Source of the DNA: a virus
Strand: one strand, 5' to 3'
IMG/VR virus record: IMGVR_UViG_3300025316_001046
Span: 1 to 20,124 of that record
DNA length: 20,124 bases
The notes beneath the pieces are model-generated. The model saw only the letters and a list, made by a program, of their open reading frames with translations, was not told where the DNA came from and did no database searches. The position numbers and the translations under genes were made by a program. Below, piece by piece: positions 265 through 13,562 of the stretch (its first letter is position 1; each line of letters starts with the position of its first letter).

Positions 265-1140
265 TTACCGGCGCTTCCCGGAATTCGCATCGATGACCAC
301 CGGTTTGGCTGGCGATCCCTGCGTCAGCGCGGATTTGTTCCCGAGCACCGGACGATCCGGGGTCGAGGCGTTATCCGCATGTACCGCTGTCGACGCTTTG
401 GCTTTCGGATCGACGCCGACCGCTTTCGCCGATTGCCCGCTGGCGGCATTCCCCTGTGTATTGGTCTGCGGACGAAATGACCGCAGTATCCCTGTGCGAC
501 TGGTGAAGTACTCCAACGCCAGCGCCGGGGGCTTCTCCAAGCCACGCGGATGGAAGTGCAGCTCCTCACCTTCGACATAGAACACATAGCCGGTCGTCCC
601 CTTGCCGTCCGACGCTCGCGCGGTCTTCGCCAGATGCGCCAGCCATTGGGCATCCGACAGTTTGCTTTGATGCAGTCGGGGGAGCCGGTCGATACTCGGC
701 GTGACCACCGGCGTCAGCCCATGCTCGTTGGCAATGGTCTCCGCGATGTCACTTGCTCGCATCCCGCCCGGCTTTTCCCACACCCGCTGCACCTGCTCGG
801 CGGACAACTTACAGCCTTTGTCATAGGCCTTGATGGTGATGGTCGGCGCTCCCGATTCCGGGAAGTCGTAGCCGATTTCCTTGATCACCGCCACCTTGGT
901 GGGCGATAAGTTGTCCGCATAGCCGAAGCGTGCACGGATTTCGTTCCCTTCCTGTAAGACCGGATCATCGATGAACTGCAGGTAGGGATCTGCCAGCGTC
1001 ACTTCCAGCAAATCCATTTCCTTCTCATGATCTTCATACGTGAAGGAAATCAGGCGATCCGTGATCTCCTTCGCGAGACGCTTTCCCGCGATCTCCAACA
1101 GCACACACGGCGCGTCAGCGCTCCGGTCAGGCATTGACAT
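265..1140 (-). CDS. Late control D-type tail hub protein, N-terminal part
   Basis: A 291-aa protein of the phage late control D family (P2 gpD; structurally like T4 gp27/VgrG hub). In contractile phages it forms the hub ring connecting tube and spike. The first 205 or so residues show the family pattern: LISFTYEDHEKEMDLLEVTL, then GNEIRARFGYAD, YDFPESGAPTITIKAYDKG, an ADIAETIANEHGL helix and HQSKLSDAQWLAHLA. The final 80 residues are a low-complexity Ala/Ser/Lys linker. The usual C-terminal strand domain is absent here and lies in the next ORF, beyond an in-frame TAA at 265-267. The start at 1140 is supported by GAGGG seven bases upstream, and the promoter-like element at 1141-1193 abuts the start codon. 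It is the only tail gene in view and is probably the first of a leftward tail operon. Confidence 0.75.
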   Translation of the reverse strand: MSMPDRSADAPCVLLEIAGKRLAKEITDRLISFTYEDHEKEMDLLEVTLADPYLQFIDDPVLQEGNEIRARFGYADNLSPTKVAVIKEIGYDFPESGAPTITIKAYDKGCKLSAEQVQRVWEKPGGMRASDIAETIANEHGLTPVVTPSIDRLPRLHQSKLSDAQWLAHLAKTARASDGKGTTGYVFYVEGEELHFHPRGLEKPPALALEYFTSRTGILRSFRPQTNTQGNAASGQSAKAVGVDPKAKASTAVHADNASTPDRPVLGNKSALTQGSPAKPVVIDANSGKRR

Positions 1141-1193
1141 TGACGGTCCCTCAATAAGTTACATAAACGGCAGCACGCCAAAGTGACGAGTCA
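1141..1193 (-). promoter_or_regulatory. Phage-specific promoter-like element, copy A (tail hub)
   Basis: Read on the minus strand it has TGACTCGTCACTTT, nine bases, CCGTTTATGTAACT, then TTATTGAGGGACCGTCA running straight into the tail-hub ATG. A -35-like CGTCAC (1183-1188) and a -10-like TATGTA (1160-1165) are separated by exactly 17 bp. It matches copy C at 50 of 53 positions, in inverted orientation, and shares its core with copy B. A start site about seven bases past the -10 would give a leader of only some 13 nt that still contains the GAGGG ribosome site. Promoter function is inferred from repetition, position and spacing. Confidence 0.7.
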
Positions 1194-1235: not shown

Positions 1236-4200
1236 TCAGGCGTCGAATAGCTCATGACCGCTGCCATAGCGGTCCAGCAGTGCCTCGAGTTTTCGCGCGT
1301 CAACCCGCCAGGCCCATTCGGGACGTGCCGTGCGCCCACCGCCGGGGATGCGCACGCGGCGGATCATCGACGCGTTGGCGGTATCCTCAGCGAGTAACAT
1401 GCCCTCTTCCGTGAGCTGCTTGCCGATGGCGGTCGTGCTGAAATAGAGTGGCTCGTCTTCTCCACGTTTATAGGCGTCACGCACCGCGCCCATGGCAAGG
1501 CGGGTGAGCAGATAAATCACCGTGCGATCCTTCGCGTAGTAGCCGATGATGGGGATGCCGTGCTCTTTGTGATCCTCGATGTAATGGTCCTTGATGCGCA
1601 CTCGATCCGCCGTCAATAATTGCGCCAGCGTGGTCAGGAAGCTTTCGCCGGGCCGCGCGTCATTCACCGACGCGATCATGCGACGCAGGATGTCCCGCAA
1701 CACGCCGGTATGCTCCACCAGTAAGTCCTGTCCGGTAATGGCCACCGGGTCACAGCCGATGGCGTAGGCAAAGTCGAGAAACGCCTCCATGCCAATGAGG
1801 GAGAGCGCGGCGTTGGAAGCCAGGCGCCGGCTATTATCCGACTGCAGCCCTTCCGCGCGCATAAAGCCCATGAAGTCCTTTTCCGCGCTGCGCAACCGCC
1901 CATGCCAGTAGGCGGGATCTTGCCGCTGCCACCAGGCGATAAAGGCGGCGGGCACTTTCCGGTAGTCCTGATGCCGTTGCAAGCAGGCCAGGTACTGTGG
2001 GTGCGTTTGCGGATCGCTCTCGAATTCGACCACCAACGAACGCGCCAGTGCCGCCGTTTCGTTAAAGGGAAGATCTTCCCCGGTGATGAGCAGCATCGCT
2101 TGAATCACCGCGCCGGAGATGACCTTGGCGCCGGGCGTCGCGCGTTTGCGCGCCTGCAAGTCGGCATAGTCCGTCAATAAGCGCAGCGCATTCGTCCATT
2201 GCATGTGGCCGATTTTCTGACGCTTGAAGTCATCGATCAGCCACAGCCCCCCGCGACAGCGCGCGGCTTCCTGTCGGTTGATCTCCGGTGTCGAGCCCCA
2301 GCCCGCCAGCTTATCCTTGGTCGTAAAATCGCCCCACAGACACTGCGCAAAGCGGGCGGTTTCCGTTTTTCCCTTGCCGGACGACCCGGCGATGAAGAGG
2401 ATGAACGGCGAATATTCCTTGACGAAATCGTGGCTGAACAGGATCGGGCCCAAAAACGCTTGCGCCAGAATCGGCAGCGTGACCGCATAGGGTTGCAGCC
2501 GCAGGAAATCCGTCAGCAGGTGTTGCACCAGGTCACGCACCTCCTCCGTGGGCGCCGCCAGCAAGTCGAGATTGCGCGCCTTGTTATAGTCGGCATGCAC
2601 ATCCACGCTGGCGTGCGTGCTTTCGGTGGCGACGATCTCCCCGTTGCGGATGACGACCGACGGCGTGACGAATCCCGCACTCGGATGCTGACCGAAAATG
2701 GTATAGACCAGCTCTTCAGTGGCTTCCGTTGACACCTGGGTGGTGATGAGACGAATGTCATCGAGATTGCGTGTCGAGAACACCGCGCGCTGTCGCGCTA
2801 CGGAGGTAATTTTTCGAGCGAGGTCGGCATTCGACCCCCAATCCGCTCCGCTGATCTGAAACGGTTTTCGCCAGGTGGGGCCGATGATCTCCCCATGCAT
2901 CGCATTGTCGGCAATCGTCGAGCCATCCTCATGGATATCGCCGTCATCGGAGAGCACTTCACGGTCGATCTTGATGTGAAAATTCGTCAGTAACTCCGGC
3001 GGCGAGACCATCGGGCCTTGCGGCGTCTCCCGCACCGTTTCACGCACGATGCCTTGATCGACCAGGTAGTAGCGCAGGCGTCCGGTGGTGAAGACGGGCC
3101 CGCCCCGTTCCTCGTTGGCGTGTTGGGCCTGCGACTCACGACTGGCCGCCTGTCTCGCCTGCTGACAGTCTTTCAAGCGCCCGCGCAATGCCACCAATCG
3201 ATAGGCGTTCCCCAGACGCTCTTGCAACGCTTTGAGCAAGCGGTCATGCTCCAGGTTCGGTTGCCGCGCGATATGCCCCAGGATATCGTCGATGAGCGTG
3301 ATGCGCTCAGTGGAGGGCGCATCGGCGGGAAAGGCATCAATCGCATACTCGACGCTGCTTTTCGCGGCTTGCACCACACATTGAAATTCCCCAACACTAT
3401 GGCCATGCACGAAGAAGCTGCAGATGTCGACCTTGGCGATGTCCAATAGTTGAAGCGCCGCCACCCGCTCGCTCTCGGGACGATCCGCGAGGTGGCTCTG
3501 CACGGAGCGCTGCCCGGCGGCGCCGGTGATCCCAAAGCGGTCACGCAGTGCGACGCGCGCCTCCTCCTGCGCGGGATCGAGCGGCAATTGCGCGATGCGG
3601 CAGGTGATGTCCGCACTCTCCAGGTGTTGGGCCGTGGTCAGTGCCCCGAGCCATCCCGCTTCCGACACCTCGTTATCCTGGCAAATCACCACTTCCTTCA
3701 CGCCGCGCAGCTTGGGCAGCACGCGTTGCCAATCGTCCTGACGGATACGCGTCGTCACCGGACTGACGCAGGGAAAGCCTTTTGCGATCAGCGTGATGCA
3801 ATCCGTAATCCCCTCGGTAATGATGACTTGACGCGGGCGACTGAGCAGACAGTCCTCGTTGAAGAGCTGCGTGTTTTCGATCCCTTCCGCCACCCAGGGA
3901 CGCTTGTCCGGGTCATAGGTCAGCAATTTCTTATACTTGCCGCTCTCCCATTTGTCGTCGGGCGTTCGCGGGCATTTACGCCCGATGAAGTAGGTGACCT
4001 GCCCCCGGCTGCGGTACGGAAACATCACCCGCTGGTTGAAGAACGGCAGCACCTTAGCTTCATCGCCGGTTTCATTGGGGCGGAAGAGTCCGCTGGACAG
4101 CAGTTCCTCGGTGGAAAAGCCTAGCGCATACAGGTGATCACGCAGCCCCTGAATATCCGCGAATCCGATGGTATGCGCCTTCAGCGTCTCGTCGGTAAAG

Positions 4201-4697
4201 GCATACTGCAGGCGCAGCCAGGCCTTCACCTCGTCGTTCGCCATCAGCCGCACGTGATACCACTCGGCGGCGGCGGTCAACACCGCTCGCGCACGCTGGA
4301 GGGTCACTTCCCGACGCTCGATCTCGGCGATGTCCGCCTCCGAGAGTCCCAGGTGAGCCAGCTTGGGCAGTCCGGCTTTCTCGGCCAGCCAATCGCGCGC
4401 GTCGCGGTGAGACTCGGTCATTACTCCGGCGATGCCCATCGTCACGATCCCATGCCGCGCGAACTCCACCAGGTGCAGCACGTCGCCGCTGATGCCACAT
4501 CCCCAGCAGCGCCAGAGTTGCTTCTCCACTTCCACGTGTAGCGATTTTCCGCTGGTGGAGGGATGTCCCGGACAGTCGATGTGGATGACGGTGCCGTGAT
4601 CCTCGGTAATGCGCGCCCCGAGCAGTTCTCGGGCCACGTCGCCGATGTTCACCGAAGTGATTTGGCGATAATATTCTTTGATGTCATGCGATTGCAT
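1236..4697 (-). CDS. Phage DnaG-type primase fused to AAA+ helicase
   Basis: A 1153-aa replication protein. The N-terminus is a CHC2-type zinc-binding primase domain, with C42, H45, C64 and C67 in CPGHPSTSGK and WRCWGCGISGDVLHLVEFA. A TOPRIM catalytic core follows, with the acidic residue in VIITEGITD (about 295) and the second acidic patch in VVICQDNE (about 341). The C-terminal half is a P-loop ATPase with Walker A AGSSGKGKT (about 770-778), Walker B GLWLIDDF (about 817-824) and a sensor-like LLITGEDLP. The last 100 residues look like a winged-helix end. Such fusions lay primers and unwind DNA at phage forks (compare T7 gp4 or P4 alpha in logic, not in close sequence). The start at 4697 is preferred over an upstream ATG because AAAGGAG lies six bases before it. 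It overlaps the preceding gene by 14 bases and is the last gene of the operon. Confidence 0.9.
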   Translation of the reverse strand: MQSHDIKEYYRQITSVNIGDVARELLGARITEDHGTVIHIDCPGHPSTSGKSLHVEVEKQLWRCWGCGISGDVLHLVEFARHGIVTMGIAGVMTESHRDARDWLAEKAGLPKLAHLGLSEADIAEIERREVTLQRARAVLTAAAEWYHVRLMANDEVKAWLRLQYAFTDETLKAHTIGFADIQGLRDHLYALGFSTEELLSSGLFRPNETGDEAKVLPFFNQRVMFPYRSRGQVTYFIGRKCPRTPDDKWESGKYKKLLTYDPDKRPWVAEGIENTQLFNEDCLLSRPRQVIITEGITDCITLIAKGFPCVSPVTTRIRQDDWQRVLPKLRGVKEVVICQDNEVSEAGWLGALTTAQHLESADITCRIAQLPLDPAQEEARVALRDRFGITGAAGQRSVQSHLADRPESERVAALQLLDIAKVDICSFFVHGHSVGEFQCVVQAAKSSVEYAIDAFPADAPSTERITLIDDILGHIARQPNLEHDRLLKALQERLGNAYRLVALRGRLKDCQQARQAASRESQAQHANEERGGPVFTTGRLRYYLVDQGIVRETVRETPQGPMVSPPELLTNFHIKIDREVLSDDGDIHEDGSTIADNAMHGEIIGPTWRKPFQISGADWGSNADLARKITSVARQRAVFSTRNLDDIRLITTQVSTEATEELVYTIFGQHPSAGFVTPSVVIRNGEIVATESTHASVDVHADYNKARNLDLLAAPTEEVRDLVQHLLTDFLRLQPYAVTLPILAQAFLGPILFSHDFVKEYSPFILFIAGSSGKGKTETARFAQCLWGDFTTKDKLAGWGSTPEINRQEAARCRGGLWLIDDFKRQKIGHMQWTNALRLLTDYADLQARKRATPGAKVISGAVIQAMLLITGEDLPFNETAALARSLVVEFESDPQTHPQYLACLQRHQDYRKVPAAFIAWWQRQDPAYWHGRLRSAEKDFMGFMRAEGLQSDNSRRLASNAALSLIGMEAFLDFAYAIGCDPVAITGQDLLVEHTGVLRDILRRMIASVNDARPGESFLTTLAQLLTADRVRIKDHYIEDHKEHGIPIIGYYAKDRTVIYLLTRLAMGAVRDAYKRGEDEPLYFSTTAIGKQLTEEGMLLAEDTANASMIRRVRIPGGGRTARPEWAWRVDARKLEALLDRYGSGHELFDA

Positions 4698-5088: not shown

Positions 5089-7322
5089 ACGACGCCTCCC
5101 TTCATCACGTCCGCCGGATCGACCAGCGCAAGAAACGTCCGGCGCGCATCCACGTCACGCCGGTCAATCGCCCGCCGGATGCCGACGGCGTCGCCCAGCA
5201 CAATGGCCGACCGCTGTGCACGCGTGACGGCGGTGTAGAGCAGATTGCGGTTGAGCATGAACGCCTGGGTGCGATGCACCACGGCGATGATGACCGGGAA
5301 CTCCGATCCCTGGCTTTTATGCACGGTCGAGGCATAGGCCAGCATCAAATCATCAGCCTCCTCCGCTTGCCGGGCGATATGCACCTGTCGCCCATCGAAA
5401 TCCAACACCAGCACTTCGACCGGGCGTTTCGTTTTTTCATCTTCCTCCTGTACGATGTCACGCACCACGCCGATGGCACCATTCATCAGCTCGAGGCCAT
5501 AGTTGTTGCGCACCTGCATGACTTTGTCGCCGATGAAGAATTCGGGACGCCGATGCTCCGGGACGGGTGGCACTTGCACGCCGAAGCGTTGCGCCTGCAC
5601 CAGGCGCTGGAGCAGGATATTGAGGGCGCGCGTACCGAGCGGCCCTTTATTGGTGGGCGTCAGCACCTGGAGATCGCGCACCGGGTCCAACCCCAGGCGC
5701 GGCACCACATCGCGCACGATGTGCTCGAGGGCGTCCAATACCGCCTGTTCTCCCCGGCAATCATCGATGAGATACCAGGGACGCAGCACGCCGTTCTCCC
5801 CCTCGGCGGTGTCCCGCACGTCGCCACGCAGGATGGCGGTACAATTCTCTTTCAGGATGCCGGCTTGCCGCACCACCTGATCCAACACGGTGATGGGGAG
5901 CATCCGGCGCGCGAGGAGATCACGCAGCACGTTCCCCGGGCCAACCGGCGGCAACTGATTCGGGTCGCCCACCAGGATAAGACGCGTCGTGTCGAAATCA
6001 ATGGCATCCAGTAAGCGCCACATCAAATGGACGTCGGCCATGCTGACTTCATCAATGATGACCACCTGCTCCGTGATCGGATTGTCATGGCTCCGTCCCC
6101 AGGTGACGGTGTTGTACTCCAGCAAGCGATGGATCGTTTTCGCTTCGACCCCACACAAGGTTTCCAACCGTTTAGCGGCCTTCCCCGTGGGCGCCGCCAG
6201 CGCCACCGCCTCTTCGCCAACGAGTCGCACGAAGGCACGGTAAATCGCCGCGATGGTGAAGGACTTGCCCGACCCCGCCGCGCCGGCGATAAGCGAAAGC
6301 ACATGTTGAATCACCATCAATGCCGCCTGTCGCTGACTGGGATTCAACTCAGCCGCTTCCTCATCGAGCAACTCGAGCCAGCACTCCGGCGGTTCCTGCT
6401 GTATGCCGCCATGCATGACGACCGAACGCAGGATATCCCACTCCCGCTGGGCGAGCGCGGGCAGCGCGATGACCAGGCGACCACCGCCGTCATAGCGGAA
6501 GAGCCGCCCCGCCGCGACTTCCCGGTCCAGCAGTTCCGCGATGAGCCGATGGGCATGGAGTGAATCCAGGCACAGCAGCTTGAACGCCTCCTGTTCCACG
6601 GCCTGCTCTTCTTGCCAGCAATGGCCGTCGTGTTCGGCTTTCAGCAGCAGGTGCCGAAACGCGGCGGCGATGCGCTCGGGGTGCTCTTTCTCGACACCGA
6701 GTTTTTGCGCGATCTCGTCGACGCGGCTAAAGCCAAAACCGGGCAGGATTCGGCACAGTTCATACGGGTTATCCGTGAGCAGGGCTTTGGCGTTGTGCCC
6801 CAGGTGCTCCACCATCCGGGTGATCTGCCGGTGGGTCAGCCCGAAGCTCCCGAGCCAACTACTCAACGCGTTCACTTCCGCACGCTTGAGCCATTCCGTG
6901 CGCAGGGTGTTCAACGTCTCTTTTGAGAGACGGGCGACCTGGGCGACTTTCTGTGGTTCTTCGCGAATGACGAAATCGAACGTATCGCCAAAGGCGTCGG
7001 CGATTTTGCGCGCCTTGGCCTCGCCGATTTGAAAGAAGGCTGGTTCACTCGCCAGGTAGTGCGCCAGGCCCTCGGCGTCAATCGGCAATTCCTGTTTCAG
7101 CCCGCTGGCCGCGAATTGCCGCCCATACTGCGGGTGGGTGGCCCAATGGCCGACCAGGGAAATGTCATCTCCTTCCGCGACCATGAACTTGCCGTTGAAG
7201 CGCACCTGGCCTTCGCCGGCATGCTTCAACACCCCGGCGGTAAATGCCGGCGATTGATAAAACAAGTGGACGACGTGTCCACGTAAGGTCATCTCTTCCG
7301 TTGCGGGCGCCAAACTTGGCAT
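5085..7322 (-). CDS. RecD2-like SF1B DNA helicase
   Basis: A 745-aa 5'-3' helicase of the RecD2/TraA superfamily 1B type, with a length typical for RecD2. The N-terminal region contains helix-hairpin-helix-like segments (FFQIGEAKARKIADAFG near 96-112 and ILPGFGFSRVDEIAQKLG near 192-209). The motor has Walker A GAAGSGKS (347-354), the APTGKAAKRL motif (377-386), Walker B VIIDEVSM (421-428), GDPNQLPPVGPG (452-463) and the C-terminal STVHKSQGSEFP and YTAVTRAQ motifs (about 665-703). It acts on DNA ends and forks. In this operon it probably supports replication or recombination with the neighbouring nucleases and Sak4-like protein. The start follows GGGAGG, with one base between it and the previous stop. 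Its stop overlaps the next ATG by four bases. Confidence 0.92.
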   Translation of the reverse strand: MPSLAPATEEMTLRGHVVHLFYQSPAFTAGVLKHAGEGQVRFNGKFMVAEGDDISLVGHWATHPQYGRQFAASGLKQELPIDAEGLAHYLASEPAFFQIGEAKARKIADAFGDTFDFVIREEPQKVAQVARLSKETLNTLRTEWLKRAEVNALSSWLGSFGLTHRQITRMVEHLGHNAKALLTDNPYELCRILPGFGFSRVDEIAQKLGVEKEHPERIAAAFRHLLLKAEHDGHCWQEEQAVEQEAFKLLCLDSLHAHRLIAELLDREVAAGRLFRYDGGGRLVIALPALAQREWDILRSVVMHGGIQQEPPECWLELLDEEAAELNPSQRQAALMVIQHVLSLIAGAAGSGKSFTIAAIYRAFVRLVGEEAVALAAPTGKAAKRLETLCGVEAKTIHRLLEYNTVTWGRSHDNPITEQVVIIDEVSMADVHLMWRLLDAIDFDTTRLILVGDPNQLPPVGPGNVLRDLLARRMLPITVLDQVVRQAGILKENCTAILRGDVRDTAEGENGVLRPWYLIDDCRGEQAVLDALEHIVRDVVPRLGLDPVRDLQVLTPTNKGPLGTRALNILLQRLVQAQRFGVQVPPVPEHRRPEFFIGDKVMQVRNNYGLELMNGAIGVVRDIVQEEDEKTKRPVEVLVLDFDGRQVHIARQAEEADDLMLAYASTVHKSQGSEFPVIIAVVHRTQAFMLNRNLLYTAVTRAQRSAIVLGDAVGIRRAIDRRDVDARRTFLALVDPADVMKGGVV

Positions 7323-9727: not shown

Positions 9728-9755
9728 GTCGTCCTCCTTTCGTCTGAAAAATTGA

Positions 9756-9986
9756 TTAGGGTACGAGCGTCTCTTGCGGGTCGTCGATGACTTGCACGAC
9801 ATCGCCGAAGGCGCCGATCAGCGCGGAAGCAATCCGCAAGGTGCCCGACGCCGACGGATTGCCGCGACGTATGGTCACGGTATGCTCGCCGTTGGCCGGC
9901 ACGCCGCCACGGCGCAGGGTGTCCTCGACGATATGTCGCGGTCCGACATATTCGAGCACGCGTAAGACACGGATGATCTCGGTCAT
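9756..9986 (-). CDS. Small conserved-looking phage protein (76 aa)
   Basis: It begins MTEIIRVLRVLEYVGPRHIVEDTLRR and has a central basic strand (HTVTIRRGN) and LRIASALIGAFGDVVQV. This arrangement, VLRVLEY-GPR at the start and a hydrophobic IASALIG near the end, recalls small unannotated proteins in phage replication operons, but I know of no established function. AAAGG sits about nine bases before the ATG. It lies 17 bases after the Fe-S nuclease stop and 28 bases before the HNH ATG, consistent with a cotranscribed gene. Confidence 0.65.
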   Translation of the reverse strand: MTEIIRVLRVLEYVGPRHIVEDTLRRGGVPANGEHTVTIRRGNPSASGTLRIASALIGAFGDVVQVIDDPQETLVP

Positions 9987-10003: not shown

Positions 10004-11017
10004 TTAAAAGACGGGGGCGTCATCGGGCGTCGCAATCAACTCTTCATGCGGCGGACGGCGCTCATACAGGTTGTCGATCACGTGCTCGGCGCCATTGGCC
10101 CGGCACAGCGGGTAATAGGCGCACGGCGCGCCGTAGTGAAAGCAATAGGCGGTGTTGCGCAGAAACCAGCGCTGCTTGCGAGCTTCCAGGAACTGTTGCG
10201 TCAACTGCCAGAGTTCCGCCTCGACTTCAGCCAGTTGGTCGCGGGAGAAATACAGCACTTCCCGGTGGAACATGTCGGGGTCGGCGTATTTCGCGCGCAG
10301 CCGTGCCTGGAAATCGGCATCCGCTTCGGGCAATTTGCGCGTGGCGGTGGTTTTGCCGGTCTTGTTCTTGGCAGCCAGTTCCGCCGCGCGCTGCTGGAAT
10401 TCCAGCGCCGTTTCTCCCTGTCCCTGGCGCAGTTTCGCCTTGACCAGGATGTTGTAGATCGCGCCGGCCACCCGGATGCCGTCATAGCGCTCCAGCGCAT
10501 AGGCGTAGAGCAGCAACTGGAAATCCATCCAGAGTTTCTCCAGATACTCGCCATCCAGGCAGCCGGTCGTTTTGTGCTCCAGCAGGAACACCTCGCCATC
10601 CACCTCGACCAGGCCATCGATCTTGCCCGCCAGCAGGAAGGTGCGGGACGGTTTCCCGCTGGCCGGGTTAATGATGGGACCGGAGAAAATGCGCTCGACA
10701 TCGGTGATCGTGAACGTTTCCTCGCGATAGCGCATGGCATAGCCCAGCATCATGGCGGATGCCAGATGCCACGCCTGTTGCACGTCAGGGTATTGCGCGC
10801 GTTGGGCGCAGGCCTGGTCGATGATCTCCTGCACGGCGCCGATATCCCGCTGGATGTGCCAGTGCTCCAGGCACCGATGGATGAGCGAGCCAAAGCGCAA
10901 GTTCGTGCTCCGACCCTGCGGCACCAGCTCGTGGAGATAGCGCCAAGCGCAGGCTCGCGGGCAATTCCGATAGGTGTTCCAGAATGTGTAGGTTGTCAGT
11001 AGACGAGTGTCTTGCAT
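10004..11017 (-). CDS. PD-(D/E)XK nuclease with Fe-S cysteines (Cas4/RecB-like)
   Basis: A 337-aa RecB-family nuclease. An N-terminal Cys pair lies in TYRNCPRACAWRYLHE (C19, C23), with a conserved His in RFGSLIHRCLE (47). The catalytic core is KIDGLVEVDGEVFLLEHKTT (D134, E147, K149), followed by a DFQLLLYAYAL helix with Q167 and Y171. Three Cys near the C-terminus (C292, C299, C305 in AYCFHYGAPCAYYPLC) complete a Cas4/AddB-style 4Fe-4S site. It likely resects DNA ends to give 3' single strands for the Sak4-like annealer. I chose the start at 11017. A longer ATG at 11056 would sit at or above the predicted transcription start of the promoter-like element 11059-11095, and GGAGAGG precedes 11017. 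First gene of the replication operon. Confidence 0.87.
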   Translation of the reverse strand: MQDTRLLTTYTFWNTYRNCPRACAWRYLHELVPQGRSTNLRFGSLIHRCLEHWHIQRDIGAVQEIIDQACAQRAQYPDVQQAWHLASAMMLGYAMRYREETFTITDVERIFSGPIINPASGKPSRTFLLAGKIDGLVEVDGEVFLLEHKTTGCLDGEYLEKLWMDFQLLLYAYALERYDGIRVAGAIYNILVKAKLRQGQGETALEFQQRAAELAAKNKTGKTTATRKLPEADADFQARLRAKYADPDMFHREVLYFSRDQLAEVEAELWQLTQQFLEARKQRWFLRNTAYCFHYGAPCAYYPLCRANGAEHVIDNLYERRPPHEELIATPDDAPVF

Positions 11018-11058
11018 CACGCATCCTCTCCGGGGGTGAGAAAAAGGTCTCCCCACTC

Positions 11059-11095
11059 AGTTACATAAACGGGACAGGTCAAAAGTGACGAGTCA
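11059..11095 (-). promoter_or_regulatory. Phage-specific promoter-like element, copy B (replication operon)
   Basis: On the minus strand it has TGACTCGTCACTTT, nine bases, CCGTTTATGTAACT. The -35-like CGTCAC (11085-11090) and -10-like TATGTA (11062-11067) are 17 bp apart, the same as copies A and C. The middle nine bases and the downstream leader differ from A and C, so the conserved blocks stand out as the constrained parts. The -35 side lies inside the last codons of the sigma-like gene (stop 11079-11081). The leader to the nuclease ATG at 11017 would be about 37 nt and contains an imperfect GGGGAGA/TCTCACCCC inverted repeat. Confidence 0.7.
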
Positions 11096-11687
11096 TTTTT
11101 AAAGAAAAGTCGAATCCCCCCGCGATAAACGCTTGGTGGATCTGGTCCACGTAGTAATAGAGCGAGGTGCGTCGCATCCCCAGCAGATGGGCCACGTCTG
11201 TCAGCGTGTGCCCGCGCATGATCAAGGCGCAGATCTGTTGCTGCAGTGGCGGAAGGGAAGCCAGCAGCATCTCGATATCCAGGCGAAGGTCCACCAACTC
11301 GGTCCAGGCGCCGGGATCATCCGCATGCATGCCAAAAGGCAGTCCGCCGGTTTCTCCCCCAATGCCCGTCACGAAGGTGGTTGACCAGTGTTCGTTATCC
11401 TCATCCGGCACAGGCGCGCACTTTACGGCAAAGCGTAAGTCCACCCGGCGGTTCCGCAAGAAGGTGGCGATACCGCTCCTGACAATCCGGTCAATGAACG
11501 TGGTCCATTGCGCGCGGGTCGGATCGAATTTGCCCATCTGCTGCAGGACGTGGAGATACAGTTCCTGGCGCAAGTCGTCCCGGTCATCGGGAGTCAGGCG
11601 GTGGGTGACGCTGAGCGTGCGCATCTTCATGCTGATGACCTGCTCGATGTAGGGATCAAAGTCGTACTGTGATGTGTTGGTAGCCAT
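11079..11687 (-). CDS. Phage-encoded sigma-70-like factor
   Basis: A 202-aa sigma-like protein. Residues 30-85 resemble sigma region 2: LTPDDRDDLRQELYLHVLQQ, KFDPTRAQWTTFIDRIVRSG and IATFLRNRRVD. Residues 136-190 resemble region 4: DIEMLLASLPPLQQQICALI, then a helix-turn-helix GHTLTDVAHLLGMRRTSLYY. The roughly 50-residue linker between them is Gly/Asp/Pro-rich and there is no region 1 or 3, as in ECF-like or phage late sigma factors. It should redirect host RNA polymerase to phage promoters, and the three repeated promoter-like elements here are the natural targets. The start has GAGGAGG six bases upstream. The C-terminus ends MTRHF, encoded by the -35 block of copy B. A non-sigma activator with sigma-like folds (ArpU/RinA style) is the main alternative. 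Confidence 0.78.
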   Translation of the reverse strand: MATNTSQYDFDPYIEQVISMKMRTLSVTHRLTPDDRDDLRQELYLHVLQQMGKFDPTRAQWTTFIDRIVRSGIATFLRNRRVDLRFAVKCAPVPDEDNEHWSTTFVTGIGGETGGLPFGMHADDPGAWTELVDLRLDIEMLLASLPPLQQQICALIMRGHTLTDVAHLLGMRRTSLYYYVDQIHQAFIAGGFDFSLKMTRHF

Positions 11688-11738
11688 GGTCGGCCTCCTC
11701 GGGTAGTGATGAGGCCGACGTCACCGCGATGGCTTTCG

Positions 11739-11766
11739 GGAAGTGAGTGCGCGACCTCTCACTTCC
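11739..11766 (-). promoter_or_regulatory. Stem-loop in the sigma gene leader
   Basis: GGAAGTGAG (11739-11747) and CTCACTTCC (11758-11766) form a perfect 9-bp stem with a 10-base loop, about 50 bases upstream of the sigma ATG on the minus strand. There is no T-run, so it is more likely an operator or an RNA control hairpin than a simple terminator. Confidence 0.4.
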
Positions 11767-11772
11767 TACTGG

Positions 11773-11787
11773 TGGAATTCCAGCCAA
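11773..11787. promoter_or_regulatory. Partial copy of the operator-like palindrome
   Basis: TGGAATTCCAGCCAA is identical to the core and right arm of the palindrome at 11898-11921, but its left arm has diverged. The following bases (ACGG against CGG) are also nearly shared. Two related copies 110-130 bases apart upstream of the sigma gene suggest a weak and a strong binding site for one dimeric regulator. Confidence 0.45.
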
Positions 11788-11897
11788 ACGGCGATATGCG
11801 GGCTAGATGAGCGGTCGCCGACACGGCTATGCGGTGGGCTGTTGAGCGTGAAATGGATGAAAAGCCGGGGCGAAAATAGTTCAAAACTTTTTTGAGG

Positions 11898-11921
11898 CGT
11901 TGGCTGGAATTCCAGCCAACG
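11898..11921. promoter_or_regulatory. Perfect 24-bp palindrome, candidate operator
   Basis: Each half reads CGTTGGCTGGAA inward with no loop, so it is a perfect palindrome centred on GAATTC. Zero-spacer symmetry fits a homodimeric repressor site better than a transcript hairpin. It lies about 210 bases upstream of the sigma start and about 175 bases before the copy C -35, so it could control either direction. No repressor gene is in the window. Confidence 0.55.
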
Positions 11922-12045
11922 GTGTTTTTGACAAGGAATAGGGCTAAGCGCAATGGTCAGACAGCCATGTGTCGCTGTGTTGAGCGAGGTATCGATGGGG
12001 TGGGCGGATAGCGGCTTCTCGTTATCTCGGGGTATCGCTGAGCGC

Positions 12046-12073
12046 ATCTCCGGAGATCTATTTTCAAAAATAG
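12046..12073. promoter_or_regulatory. Two adjoining short palindromes before promoter copy C
   Basis: ATCTCCGGAGAT (12046-12057, perfect) directly abuts CTATTTTCAAAAATAG (12058-12073, 7-bp arms, 2-base centre). They end about 23 bases before the -35-like box of copy C, a position suited to an activator or repressor of the head-side promoter. Function is inferred from position only. Confidence 0.35.
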
Positions 12074-12091
12074 TTGGCCGGCTCCCGGAAA

Positions 12092-12144
12092 TGACTCGTC
12101 ACTTTTCCCTGCTGCCGTTTATGTAACTTATTGAGGGACCGTCA
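12092..12144 (+). promoter_or_regulatory. Phage-specific promoter-like element, copy C (head side)
   Basis: Plus-strand copy, nearly identical to copy A over the full 53 bases (three differences, all in the spacer). CGTCAC is at 12097-12102, TATGTA at 12120-12125, spacer 17. It points toward the head-gene block. It retains the TTATTGAGGGACCGTCA leader that serves as ribosome site in copy A, but the following ATG is missing here (TTTTCC instead), so the next supported start is more than 100 bases on. This suggests that a promoter-leader cassette was copied. Confidence 0.7.
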
Positions 12145-12288
12145 TTTTCCGGCTGAGGCATCAGAGCACAGCCATGGTCCTCTGACTGAAATCTGGAGGT
12201 GTTCCGGTGTCCGAGTAGTTCCTGCTATTACATACGCGCTTATACGCGCCGTTCTACCTTCGTATATACAGCGGGACAGACTCCCGAG

Positions 12289-12369
12289 ATGAAGCGTTCG
12301 TTCTTATTAATTTCCTCTCTCCTCGCGAGCTGTCTGAAGAGAGAAGAAAGAAGAAGACTTAAAGACTGA
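12289..12369 (+). CDS. Possible 26-aa small ORF with lipoprotein-like start
   Basis: It encodes MKRSFLLISSLLASC followed by LKREERRRLKD. This has the look of a tiny lipoprotein signal (basic start, hydrophobic core, LASC lipobox) with a highly charged tail. No convincing Shine-Dalgarno sequence is seen, and at this length chance is a real possibility. It sits in the leader of the head-side transcript. Some phages encode small lipoproteins for lysis or exclusion, but nothing here proves that. Confidence 0.2.
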   Translation: MKRSFLLISSLLASCLKREERRRLKD

Positions 12370-12388
12370 GGAAGCTGAGGTGACTGGG

Positions 12389-12526
12389 ATGACTGAGACG
12401 GATAGCCTGACAGACCCTAGCATTCGTTCACGTCGTGTATATGTATATATACGTGAGGCCCATGGCATGGACACGGAACCGCACCGTCTCGGGAGCGTAA
12501 AACCAGGGAGGCAGCCACATGCCTGA
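12389..12526 (+). CDS. Possible 45-aa leader ORF before the 347-aa gene
   Basis: MTETDSLTDPSIRSRRVYVY and onward; not recognised. GAGGTG lies six bases before the ATG, and the stop overlaps the start of the next gene (ATGCCTGA), an arrangement typical of translational coupling. The short length and lack of motifs keep confidence low. It may serve mainly as a leader peptide. Confidence 0.35.
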   Translation: MTETDSLTDPSIRSRRVYVYIREAHGMDTEPHRLGSVKPGRQPHA

Positions 12527-13562
12527 TGCGACACCCTCCCTGTTTCCACTGGACCAAGCCAGGAACACCCAGCCGAACACGTCCCTCTGGTATGCCACCG
12601 ATCTGTCTCGCTGGGAGGATGCCACCGCGCAAATCACCACTGACCAGGATATGGTGCTGCACGGGAAAGCCTATCGGCGCTTGACGCCTGAGTATTACGC
12701 CTGGCTGCGCTCTCGAATGACGCACGCTCAGGAAAAGCATCGACGCGGCTTGCTGCCGGCAGCGGTCTATGACCAGCTCCGCGCGCGATTCAACGTCATG
12801 CAGGATGATGCGATTCAGCGCTACGGGGAAGCGACGTTGCTGGCAGTGCTGGAATCGCTGGATATGCAGGGCTATGAGCCACCGAGCGCACAGGCCACGT
12901 CCCGTTTGCTGGCATTGCTGCAGGATGCTCAGTTTGTTGAAACAACGTCTTCGGCGCTGCCCGATCCGACCGAACCGCCGAACTTGGCCGTGGGTGTCCC
13001 CGTGCGGATGCTCGGTGGCAGTGAAGGCGTCGTGACGATGATCCATGCGGCGGAAGCGGAGTTGCCTGGCGGATGGGTGGAGTTCACCACGACGGATGGT
13101 CAGCGCGGGCAGGCTGATACACGCTATCTCACTGATCTGTATGGCCGCCGATTCGTGCCGATGACTTATACGCCGTATGAGCAACGGGCCATGCAATTGG
13201 CGGCGGACGAACGCCCAGAGGATTTCGACGACATCCTGCCCGACTTGAATTATCCGCCAACCGGAACGTGGCGATTTACCGAAAAGGTTGATCTGCTCGA
13301 TTACTTCAAGGTCGAGGAAATCAAGGAGACGGCGATGGCATTAGGCTGGTCGCACGCCGATCTGTTTCAGAACCGGGGACGATTCGCCATGCCGTGTGGA
13401 CAGGATTATGGCTTGATCTGTTTTGTGCATGGGCGTGCGCTCGGTGCGGTGACCGCTGAGGCCATCGAGGTATTCCCCGAGAAGGGCAACCGTGACCACT
13501 GCACGCGGTTCCATCGACCACGACGTCAGGAGGTGACGCATGTTAGCGCAACCGCGACATAA
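12519..13562 (+). CDS. Uncharacterised phage protein (347 aa)
   Basis: Not recognised. The first half is helical and charged (EYYAWLRSRMTHAQEKHRRG, AVYDQLRARFNVMQ). A middle segment, VGVPVRMLGGSEGVVTMI to GWVEFTTTDGQRGQ, has the beta-rich look of a small SH3/KOW-like barrel. The C-terminal third is mixed and ends with a Cys/His-containing FMP/CGQDYGLICFVHGRA stretch. There is no signal or membrane segment. GGGAGG lies seven bases before the ATG, and the gene overlaps the next one by 23 bases. As the first sizeable gene after the head-side promoter it could be a regulatory or DNA-contacting early-late protein, but this is guesswork. Confidence 0.7.
   Translation: MPDATPSLFPLDQARNTQPNTSLWYATDLSRWEDATAQITTDQDMVLHGKAYRRLTPEYYAWLRSRMTHAQEKHRRGLLPAAVYDQLRARFNVMQDDAIQRYGEATLLAVLESLDMQGYEPPSAQATSRLLALLQDAQFVETTSSALPDPTEPPNLAVGVPVRMLGGSEGVVTMIHAAEAELPGGWVEFTTTDGQRGQADTRYLTDLYGRRFVPMTYTPYEQRAMQLAADERPEDFDDILPDLNYPPTGTWRFTEKVDLLDYFKVEEIKETAMALGWSHADLFQNRGRFAMPCGQDYGLICFVHGRALGAVTAEAIEVFPEKGNRDHCTRFHRPRRQEVTHVSATAT

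Follow-up and report, generated by a model that had tools for sequence, protein, structure and literature searches.

An ECF-type phage sigma factor and the CGTCAC-17 bp-TATGTA promoter class that it very likely reads

The phages phiEco32 and 7-11 encode an ECF-like sigma factor that has middle and late promoters of its own (PMC4331800). The sigma factors gp28 of SPO1 and gp55 of T4 are also known to switch the host core polymerase to later gene blocks; they belong to different sigma lineages with different promoter sequences, and the promoters of T4 gp55 have no -35 box. Among bacterial sigma factors, those of the ECF type (group IV) contain under the present definition only the domains sigma2 and sigma4, and residues of both domains match promoter bases (PMC8103513). 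Phage regulation in Planctomycetota and other uncultured hosts is almost unknown. Here we analysed a virus record of 20,124 bp (the window), probably a fragment, which carries a sigma factor gene and a repeated two-box element.

The pattern TGACTCGTCACTTT-N9-CCGTTTATGTAACT has three exact matches in the window, at 1157-1193 (minus strand), 11059-11095 (minus strand) and 12092-12128 (plus strand), referred to below as copies 1, 2 and 3. The 28 fixed bases of this 37-bp element show no mismatch in any of the three copies; no further copy was found in the 20,124 bp when up to 3 mismatches were allowed, and none occurred in 100 dinucleotide-preserving shuffles of the window. In 3 of 3 copies CGTCAC and TATGTA stand 17 bp apart, and each copy lies immediately 5' of a gene block. 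Copies 1 and 3 are 91% alike over 58 bp, a likeness reaching through the ribosome-binding site. Because the window is only a 20-kb fragment, three copies should be regarded as a minimum; a relative, G001, has four. The boxes, their spacing and their positions are shown directly, while the start sites given below are inferred.

The predicted promoter P1 (1160..1188, minus strand) consists of CGTCAC at 1183-1188, a 17-bp spacer and TATGTA at 1160-1165. Its predicted start is near 1153, which would give a 13-nt leader with GAGGGA ahead of the ATG at 1140, and downstream of it lies a tail protein gene (265..1140, minus strand; PHROG tail protein, 7.8e-27). The predicted promoter P2 (11062..11090, minus strand), with a -35-like CGTCAC at 11085-11090, a 17-bp spacer and a -10-like TATGTA at 11062-11067, has a predicted start near 11055 and overlaps the stop codon of the sigma gene; copy 2 covers the last sigma codons (ATGACTCGTCACTTTTGA, MTRHF-stop), the gene ending at 11079. 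P2 is directed at the exonuclease/replication operon, and the first gene after it (10004..11017, minus strand) encodes a PD-(D/E)XK exonuclease (Pfam PDDEXK_1, 5.5e-20; PHROG exonuclease, 8.9e-47) that heads recombination and replication genes running from 11017 down to 1236. The predicted promoter P3 (12097..12125, plus strand), with CGTCAC at 12097-12102, a 17-bp spacer, TATGTA at 12120-12125 and a predicted start near 12132, is directed at the head-side genes. The first long gene after P3 (12519..13562, plus strand) encodes a protein of unknown function without a match in Pfam, PHROG or NCBIfam, and is followed by genes for an HTH protein, terminase, portal and minor head protein. The first-pass annotation had claimed three elements with these boxes and this gap, each facing the first gene of a block (tail, replication and head side), and both claims held. 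Its placing of the sigma gene between two elements held in part, as copy 2 overlaps the 3' end of that gene rather than lying beside it.

The sigma gene (11079..11687, minus strand) encodes 202 amino acids matching Pfam Sigma70_r2 above the cutoff, the PHROG sigma factor family, the NCBIfam sigma70-ECF superfamily below the cutoff and, in PDB profiles, the ECF sigmas RpoE/SigE. The best Foldseek matches of its AlphaFold model (pLDDT 82.5) are ECF sigma structures. In this model, sigma2 comprises helices 12-29, 33-53 and 61-89, followed by a low-confidence, disordered linker at 90-124 (about 35 aa) and by sigma4 with a helix-turn-helix at 125-189, and the ECF criterion of sigma2 and sigma4 only, with a linker under 50 aa, is met. 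The architecture of the model and the profile and fold matches show that the protein is of ECF type under the present definition, sigma2 plus sigma4 only (PMC8103513), which refines its first description as sigma-70-like with regions 2 and 4. The older ECF criterion, AAC at -35 and CGT at -10 (PMC8103513), is not met, the consensus over 49 pairs being CGNC[A/G]N and TANGT[A/G]. The boxes also fit TTGACA/TATAAT poorly, and the claim that they are unlike the standard sigma-70 and ECF consensus held.

No CGTCAC-17-TATGTA site directed at the sigma gene was found in the window or in G001; therefore there is no sign here of positive autoregulation, a common trait of ECF systems. None of the neighbours of the sigma gene was recognised as an anti-sigma factor, no systematic search having been made. 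Upstream of the sigma gene lies a perfect palindrome, TTGGCTGGAATTCCAGCCAA (11900..11919), with a 16/20 copy at 11768-11787, and both copies are retained in G001 (17914 and 18045). This palindrome may possibly be an operator for sigma expression or a terminator on the plus strand.

When IMG/VR was scanned for the motif, a single further contig was found, IMGVR_UViG_3300009175_000061 (G001, 29 kb); it carries copies at three orthologous places, one for each of P1, P2 and P3; the counterpart of P1 lies between the primase and tail genes. Most flanking DNA of G001 is 88-92% identical to the window, while the sigma proteins are 50% identical and the DNA upstream of the sigma gene is about 73% identical or unalignable. 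The boxes are identical in the two phages and the bases between and after them differ, so that the boxes are retained while spacers and surrounding intergenic DNA diverge. The bases after TATGTAAC agree within one phage, being ACTTATTG or ACTGAGTG in the window and ACGGTTAG or ACGGTTGG in G001. A fourth G001 copy at 4038-4066 (minus strand) has CGTCAC-17-TATGTA without the preceding palindromic TGACT half; the large gene after it (L008:455-3988) encodes 1177 aa in which D12 N6-adenine methyltransferase is matched twice, and the protein is extended at its C terminus. Because this copy lacks TGACT, it is CGTCAC and TATGTA that carry the signal and not the palindrome TGACtcGTCA, and the first-pass annotation has to be corrected in this respect: TGACT upstream of CGTCAC is not essential.

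The same data bear on a different reading, in which a phage repressor or activator uses the elements as operators, its dimers binding the near-palindromes TGACTCGTCA and GTTTATGTAAC, transcription being left to the host sigma-70. In its favour, each half-box of the window comes close to a palindrome, and in G001 the symmetry of the second is complete (CCGTT-TATGT-AACGG). Against it, the fourth G001 site has no TGACT half, every site is oriented alike relative to its gene, the palindromes are absent from the relatives, whose consensus has no symmetry and keeps CGNC, 17 bp and TANGTA, and a promoter base covaries with a residue of the sigma factor (see below). We regard operators as very unlikely and promoters as the better reading.

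The region that separates P3 from the head-side genes contains about 320 nt (12195-12520) strongly conserved with G001, from GGAGGTGTTCCGGTGTCCGAGTAG onward, without an apparent long gene; a leader RNA, small ORFs or an origin are all possible. No Rfam families were found in the window.

A tblastn search with the window sigma against 50,697 phage records gave no match, single-protein scans of IMG/VR gave at most G001, and alignments of two and four sigma members again gave only G001. The wider sigma family surfaced only once distant homologues from genomes joined the profile. The family is common among Planctomycetota: when 294 genomes of the phylum of L012 (Phycisphaerales, Planctomycetota) were searched with the profile, 28 proved to contain relatives. 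For the phylum of L011, which is an Acidobacteria genome, the count was 4 out of 297. The syntenic relatives of the window come mostly from Planctomycetota genomes. In about 10 loci, within the limits of their contigs, sigma is followed by an exonuclease and a Sak4-like ATPase; several of them continue with a single-strand-binding-like protein, a nuclease and RecD, and 4 of them have a homologue of 12519-13562 on the opposite side of sigma; such homologues, divergent from sigma, occur in L052, L053, L055 and L073.

The exact motif of the window is absent from these syntenic relatives. A de novo repeat search revealed that L053 and L055 have two-box repeats of their own, at the sigma 3' end and directly 5' of the 12519 homologue, which read CGCCAC-17-TAGGTG and CGCCAA-17-TAGGTA and have the same 17-bp gap as in the window. 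The same layout was found in L073 (CGACAC/CGACGT-17-TAGGTG/TACGTG) and in L052 (CGACGT/CGACGG-17-TATGTA). In all four loci the 12519 homologue has its start codon (ATG or GTG) 6 nt past the end of the -10 box, and a normal start site would therefore give a leaderless mRNA. L140, L141 and L143 resemble the window in having three sites each, one at the sigma 3' end, one about 2.3 kb downstream and one about 3 kb upstream on the other strand. A site of the P2 type is present at the equivalent place in 49 non-redundant sigma phages, and the family consensus over these pairs has a spacer of 17 between its two boxes. Recurrence of the sites in relatives is thus shown. No such repeat was found with the sigma homologues of L011 and L012, and a site above threshold at the sigma 3' end is absent at about a third of the 92 sigma-family loci. 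Some of these loci (L051, L056, L058, L060, L065 and L074) carry a differently shaped repeat, and in the others none was found.

The two-box repeat of L060 (TGACAC ... CTACATGAGTAMTAACC) occurs at 9745-9780 and 12005-12040, with one copy lying at the 3' end of the sigma gene and the other ahead of excisionase/integrase-like genes. As a separate observation, the intergenic region between sigma and the 12519 homologue in planctomycete relatives (L053:6722-7036, L055:6826-7087 and L052 at about 6100-6420) contains many GCGGGATGT / ACATCCCGC repeats, which might be operators or origin iterons.

A degenerate pattern derived from this promoter class, with the 17-bp gap, matched 33 places in IMG/VR, 11 of them within 50 nt of a same-strand sigma-family stop codon (several of the contigs in this count being near copies), and the control with an 18-bp gap matched 4 places, all of them away from sigma genes. 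Three whole genomes, 15.7 Mb in total, contained 6 matches to the 17-bp pattern at up to 1 mismatch, 5 of which are known phage sites; the 18-bp pattern and a reversed-pattern control had no match there. The last IMG/VR scan yielded 73 sigma loci picked irrespective of any motif, which fall into 42 clusters when grouped at 90% identity. Five phages served to train a weight matrix, which was then run over a 160-bp stretch around each sigma stop codon in 78 further loci; with spacer 17 it placed 38 of the 78 sigma 3' ends above the 99th percentile of control windows (expected 0.8). With spacers of 13, 14, 15, 16, 18, 19, 20 and 21 the numbers were 6, 2, 1, 1, 3, 2, 5 and 5 of 78, respectively. 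The best sites start either 2-12 nt past the stop codon of sigma or at most 72 nt ahead of it. A search of each of the 49 non-redundant loci for extra copies of its own site returned 36 with spacer 17, and 5-12 with spacers 14-16 and 18-20.

The repeats could instead have arisen by gene conversion, or be recombination sites, without promoter function. This is supported by the 58 bp that copies 1 and 3 share at 91% and by a tyrosine integrase gene lying nearby. It is opposed by the fixed boxes and distance with variable middles, by the occurrence of sites at orthologous places in phages whose sigmas are 25-50% identical and by the spacing control (33 places at 17 bp versus 4 at 18 bp in IMG/VR), and we consider it highly improbable. 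A second alternative, in which the element at the 3' end of the sigma gene terminates the sigma mRNA or serves as a signal in its 3' UTR, is in our view equally improbable. A weak terminator-like hairpin does overlap copy 2, but copies 1 and 3 do not follow sigma, and in L069 an insertion of about 2.3-2.5 kb parts sigma from the operon while the element stays with the operon. There, the gene for a 764-aa P-loop-like protein lies on the opposite strand (1617-3911) between sigma (3953-4540, minus strand) and the replication operon, and the site, CGACGG-17-TAGGTA, adjoins the operon near 1423 (minus strand), away from sigma; therefore the element belongs to the downstream operon. The inserted gene itself may be a cargo or defence gene.

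It could further be argued that these are ordinary host sigma-70 promoters, repeated by chance, and that the phage sigma acts elsewhere. The 17-bp spacing does match that of sigma-70 promoters. However, CGTCAC and TATGTA are a poor fit to the sigma-70 boxes, no sigma-70-like promoter was found in 10900-12600 (a scan covering P2 and P3, with P1 outside it), and the elements co-occur with the sigma family and vary from phage to phage along with the sigma. This explanation is, in our judgement, very improbable, and a promoter class dedicated to the phage sigma remains the preferred reading.

Normalised mutual information was calculated for all promoter positions against all sigma columns in the 49 non-redundant pairs. 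The top pair was base 21, which lies three bases 5' of TANGTA at about -15, and residue 78 in the numbering of the window sigma: G occurs with Arg in 24 pairs and C with Glu in 16, and the window and G001 both have Arg78 and G21. When the covarying columns were left out of a maximum-likelihood tree, about 8 changes were required on it for each of the R/G and E/C states, and a model of dependent evolution beats independence (LR 25.8, 4 df, p 3e-5, uncorrected for choosing the pair, which was taken from many candidates). In this likelihood comparison residue 78 ranks first of 156 columns and residue 49, which belongs to a different sigma2 helix, comes next. When only strongly supported branches are counted, about 3 independent switches remain, all in the same direction (sign test p 0.25). 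Because these independent contrasts are few, the covariation evidence is strong but not closed. No comparably strong covariation was found between region 4.2 residues and the -35 box. That protein and signal changed together across dozens of related phages is shown by these comparisons; recognition of the signal by the protein is inferred.

Residue 78 sits in helix 61-89 of sigma2 in the AlphaFold model. This is the helix of regions 2.3-2.4, with which sigma factors generally recognise the -10 side, and a preference of Arg side chains for G and of Glu side chains for C is well known. The covariation is the signature expected of direct reading by the sigma, and we consider such reading likely, with no in vitro data at hand. 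A bolder reading is that a single residue has repeatedly re-coded promoter specificity across the family, Arg78 reading G and Glu78 reading C, and that coexisting phages are thereby mutually insulated. We incline to this reading by a narrow margin only; if true, it would mean that dozens of orthogonal sigma-promoter pairs, obeying a simple base-residue code, exist in nature.

Taken as a whole, CGTCAC-17 bp-TATGTA is very likely a dedicated promoter class read by the ECF-like phage sigma, for which no transcript or in vitro data exist. In the mechanism that we propose, the sigma would very probably redirect the host RNA polymerase core to a small private promoter class placed 5' of the replication, tail and head gene blocks. 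It would be made early, from a different promoter of its own, this order and the timing being inferred. Together with the host core it would then open P2, inside the 3' end of its own gene, feeding the recombination and replication genes, and also P1 and P3, tying the structural blocks to the presence of the sigma. The region 2.3-2.4 helix of sigma2 (residue 78, perhaps 85) would read the -10 side and sigma4 presumably CGNCA. A dedicated promoter and sigma for three blocks had been proposed in the first-pass annotation, and comparative evidence supports this, without transcript-start or biochemical data. Of the checks it named, the search for the spaced motif in the phage and its relatives found it confined to operon starts, the relatives having the same or a shifted motif with the 17-bp spacer; relatives that keep the sigma without a clear site do exist, as given above (about a third of the loci). 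The covariation, which points to direct recognition, was not foreseen.

The predicted promoters, operon starts and likely transcription programme of this phage and of dozens of relatives were obtained from sequence alone. For ECF-like sigmas they add a promoter class with non-canonical boxes (CGNCA / TANGTA), a residue-base code that can be tested and a set of sigma-promoter pairs that are candidates for orthogonality. Placing a sigma-specific promoter at the 3' end of the sigma gene is a simple layout, by which the order of sigma first and next operon second would be built into the map.

Compared with the bacterial ECF group IV (PMC8103513), the window sigma shares the sigma2 plus sigma4 architecture with a linker under 50 residues, and the matching of sigma residues to promoter bases; the boxes of its family are CGNCA/TANGTA and not AAC/CGT, with no anti-sigma recognised and no self-promoter found. 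What is proposed here resembles the action of SPO1 gp28 and T4 gp55. By analogy, the closest functional counterpart is the sigma of phiEco32 and 7-11 (PMC4331800), although the window sigma is too unlike it for tblastn to find it in any phage record. These phages share with the window a phage ECF-like sigma and a few well-conserved, low-copy promoters 5' of gene clusters (PMC4331800), and the 7-11 core motif TGATGT resembles the TANGTA of the window family (PMC4331800). The 7-11 motifs are a short -10-type element (PMC4331800), whereas the window has a fixed -35 box, a 17-bp gap and a -10 box, and, unlike in 7-11, one of its sites lies at the 3' end of the sigma gene.
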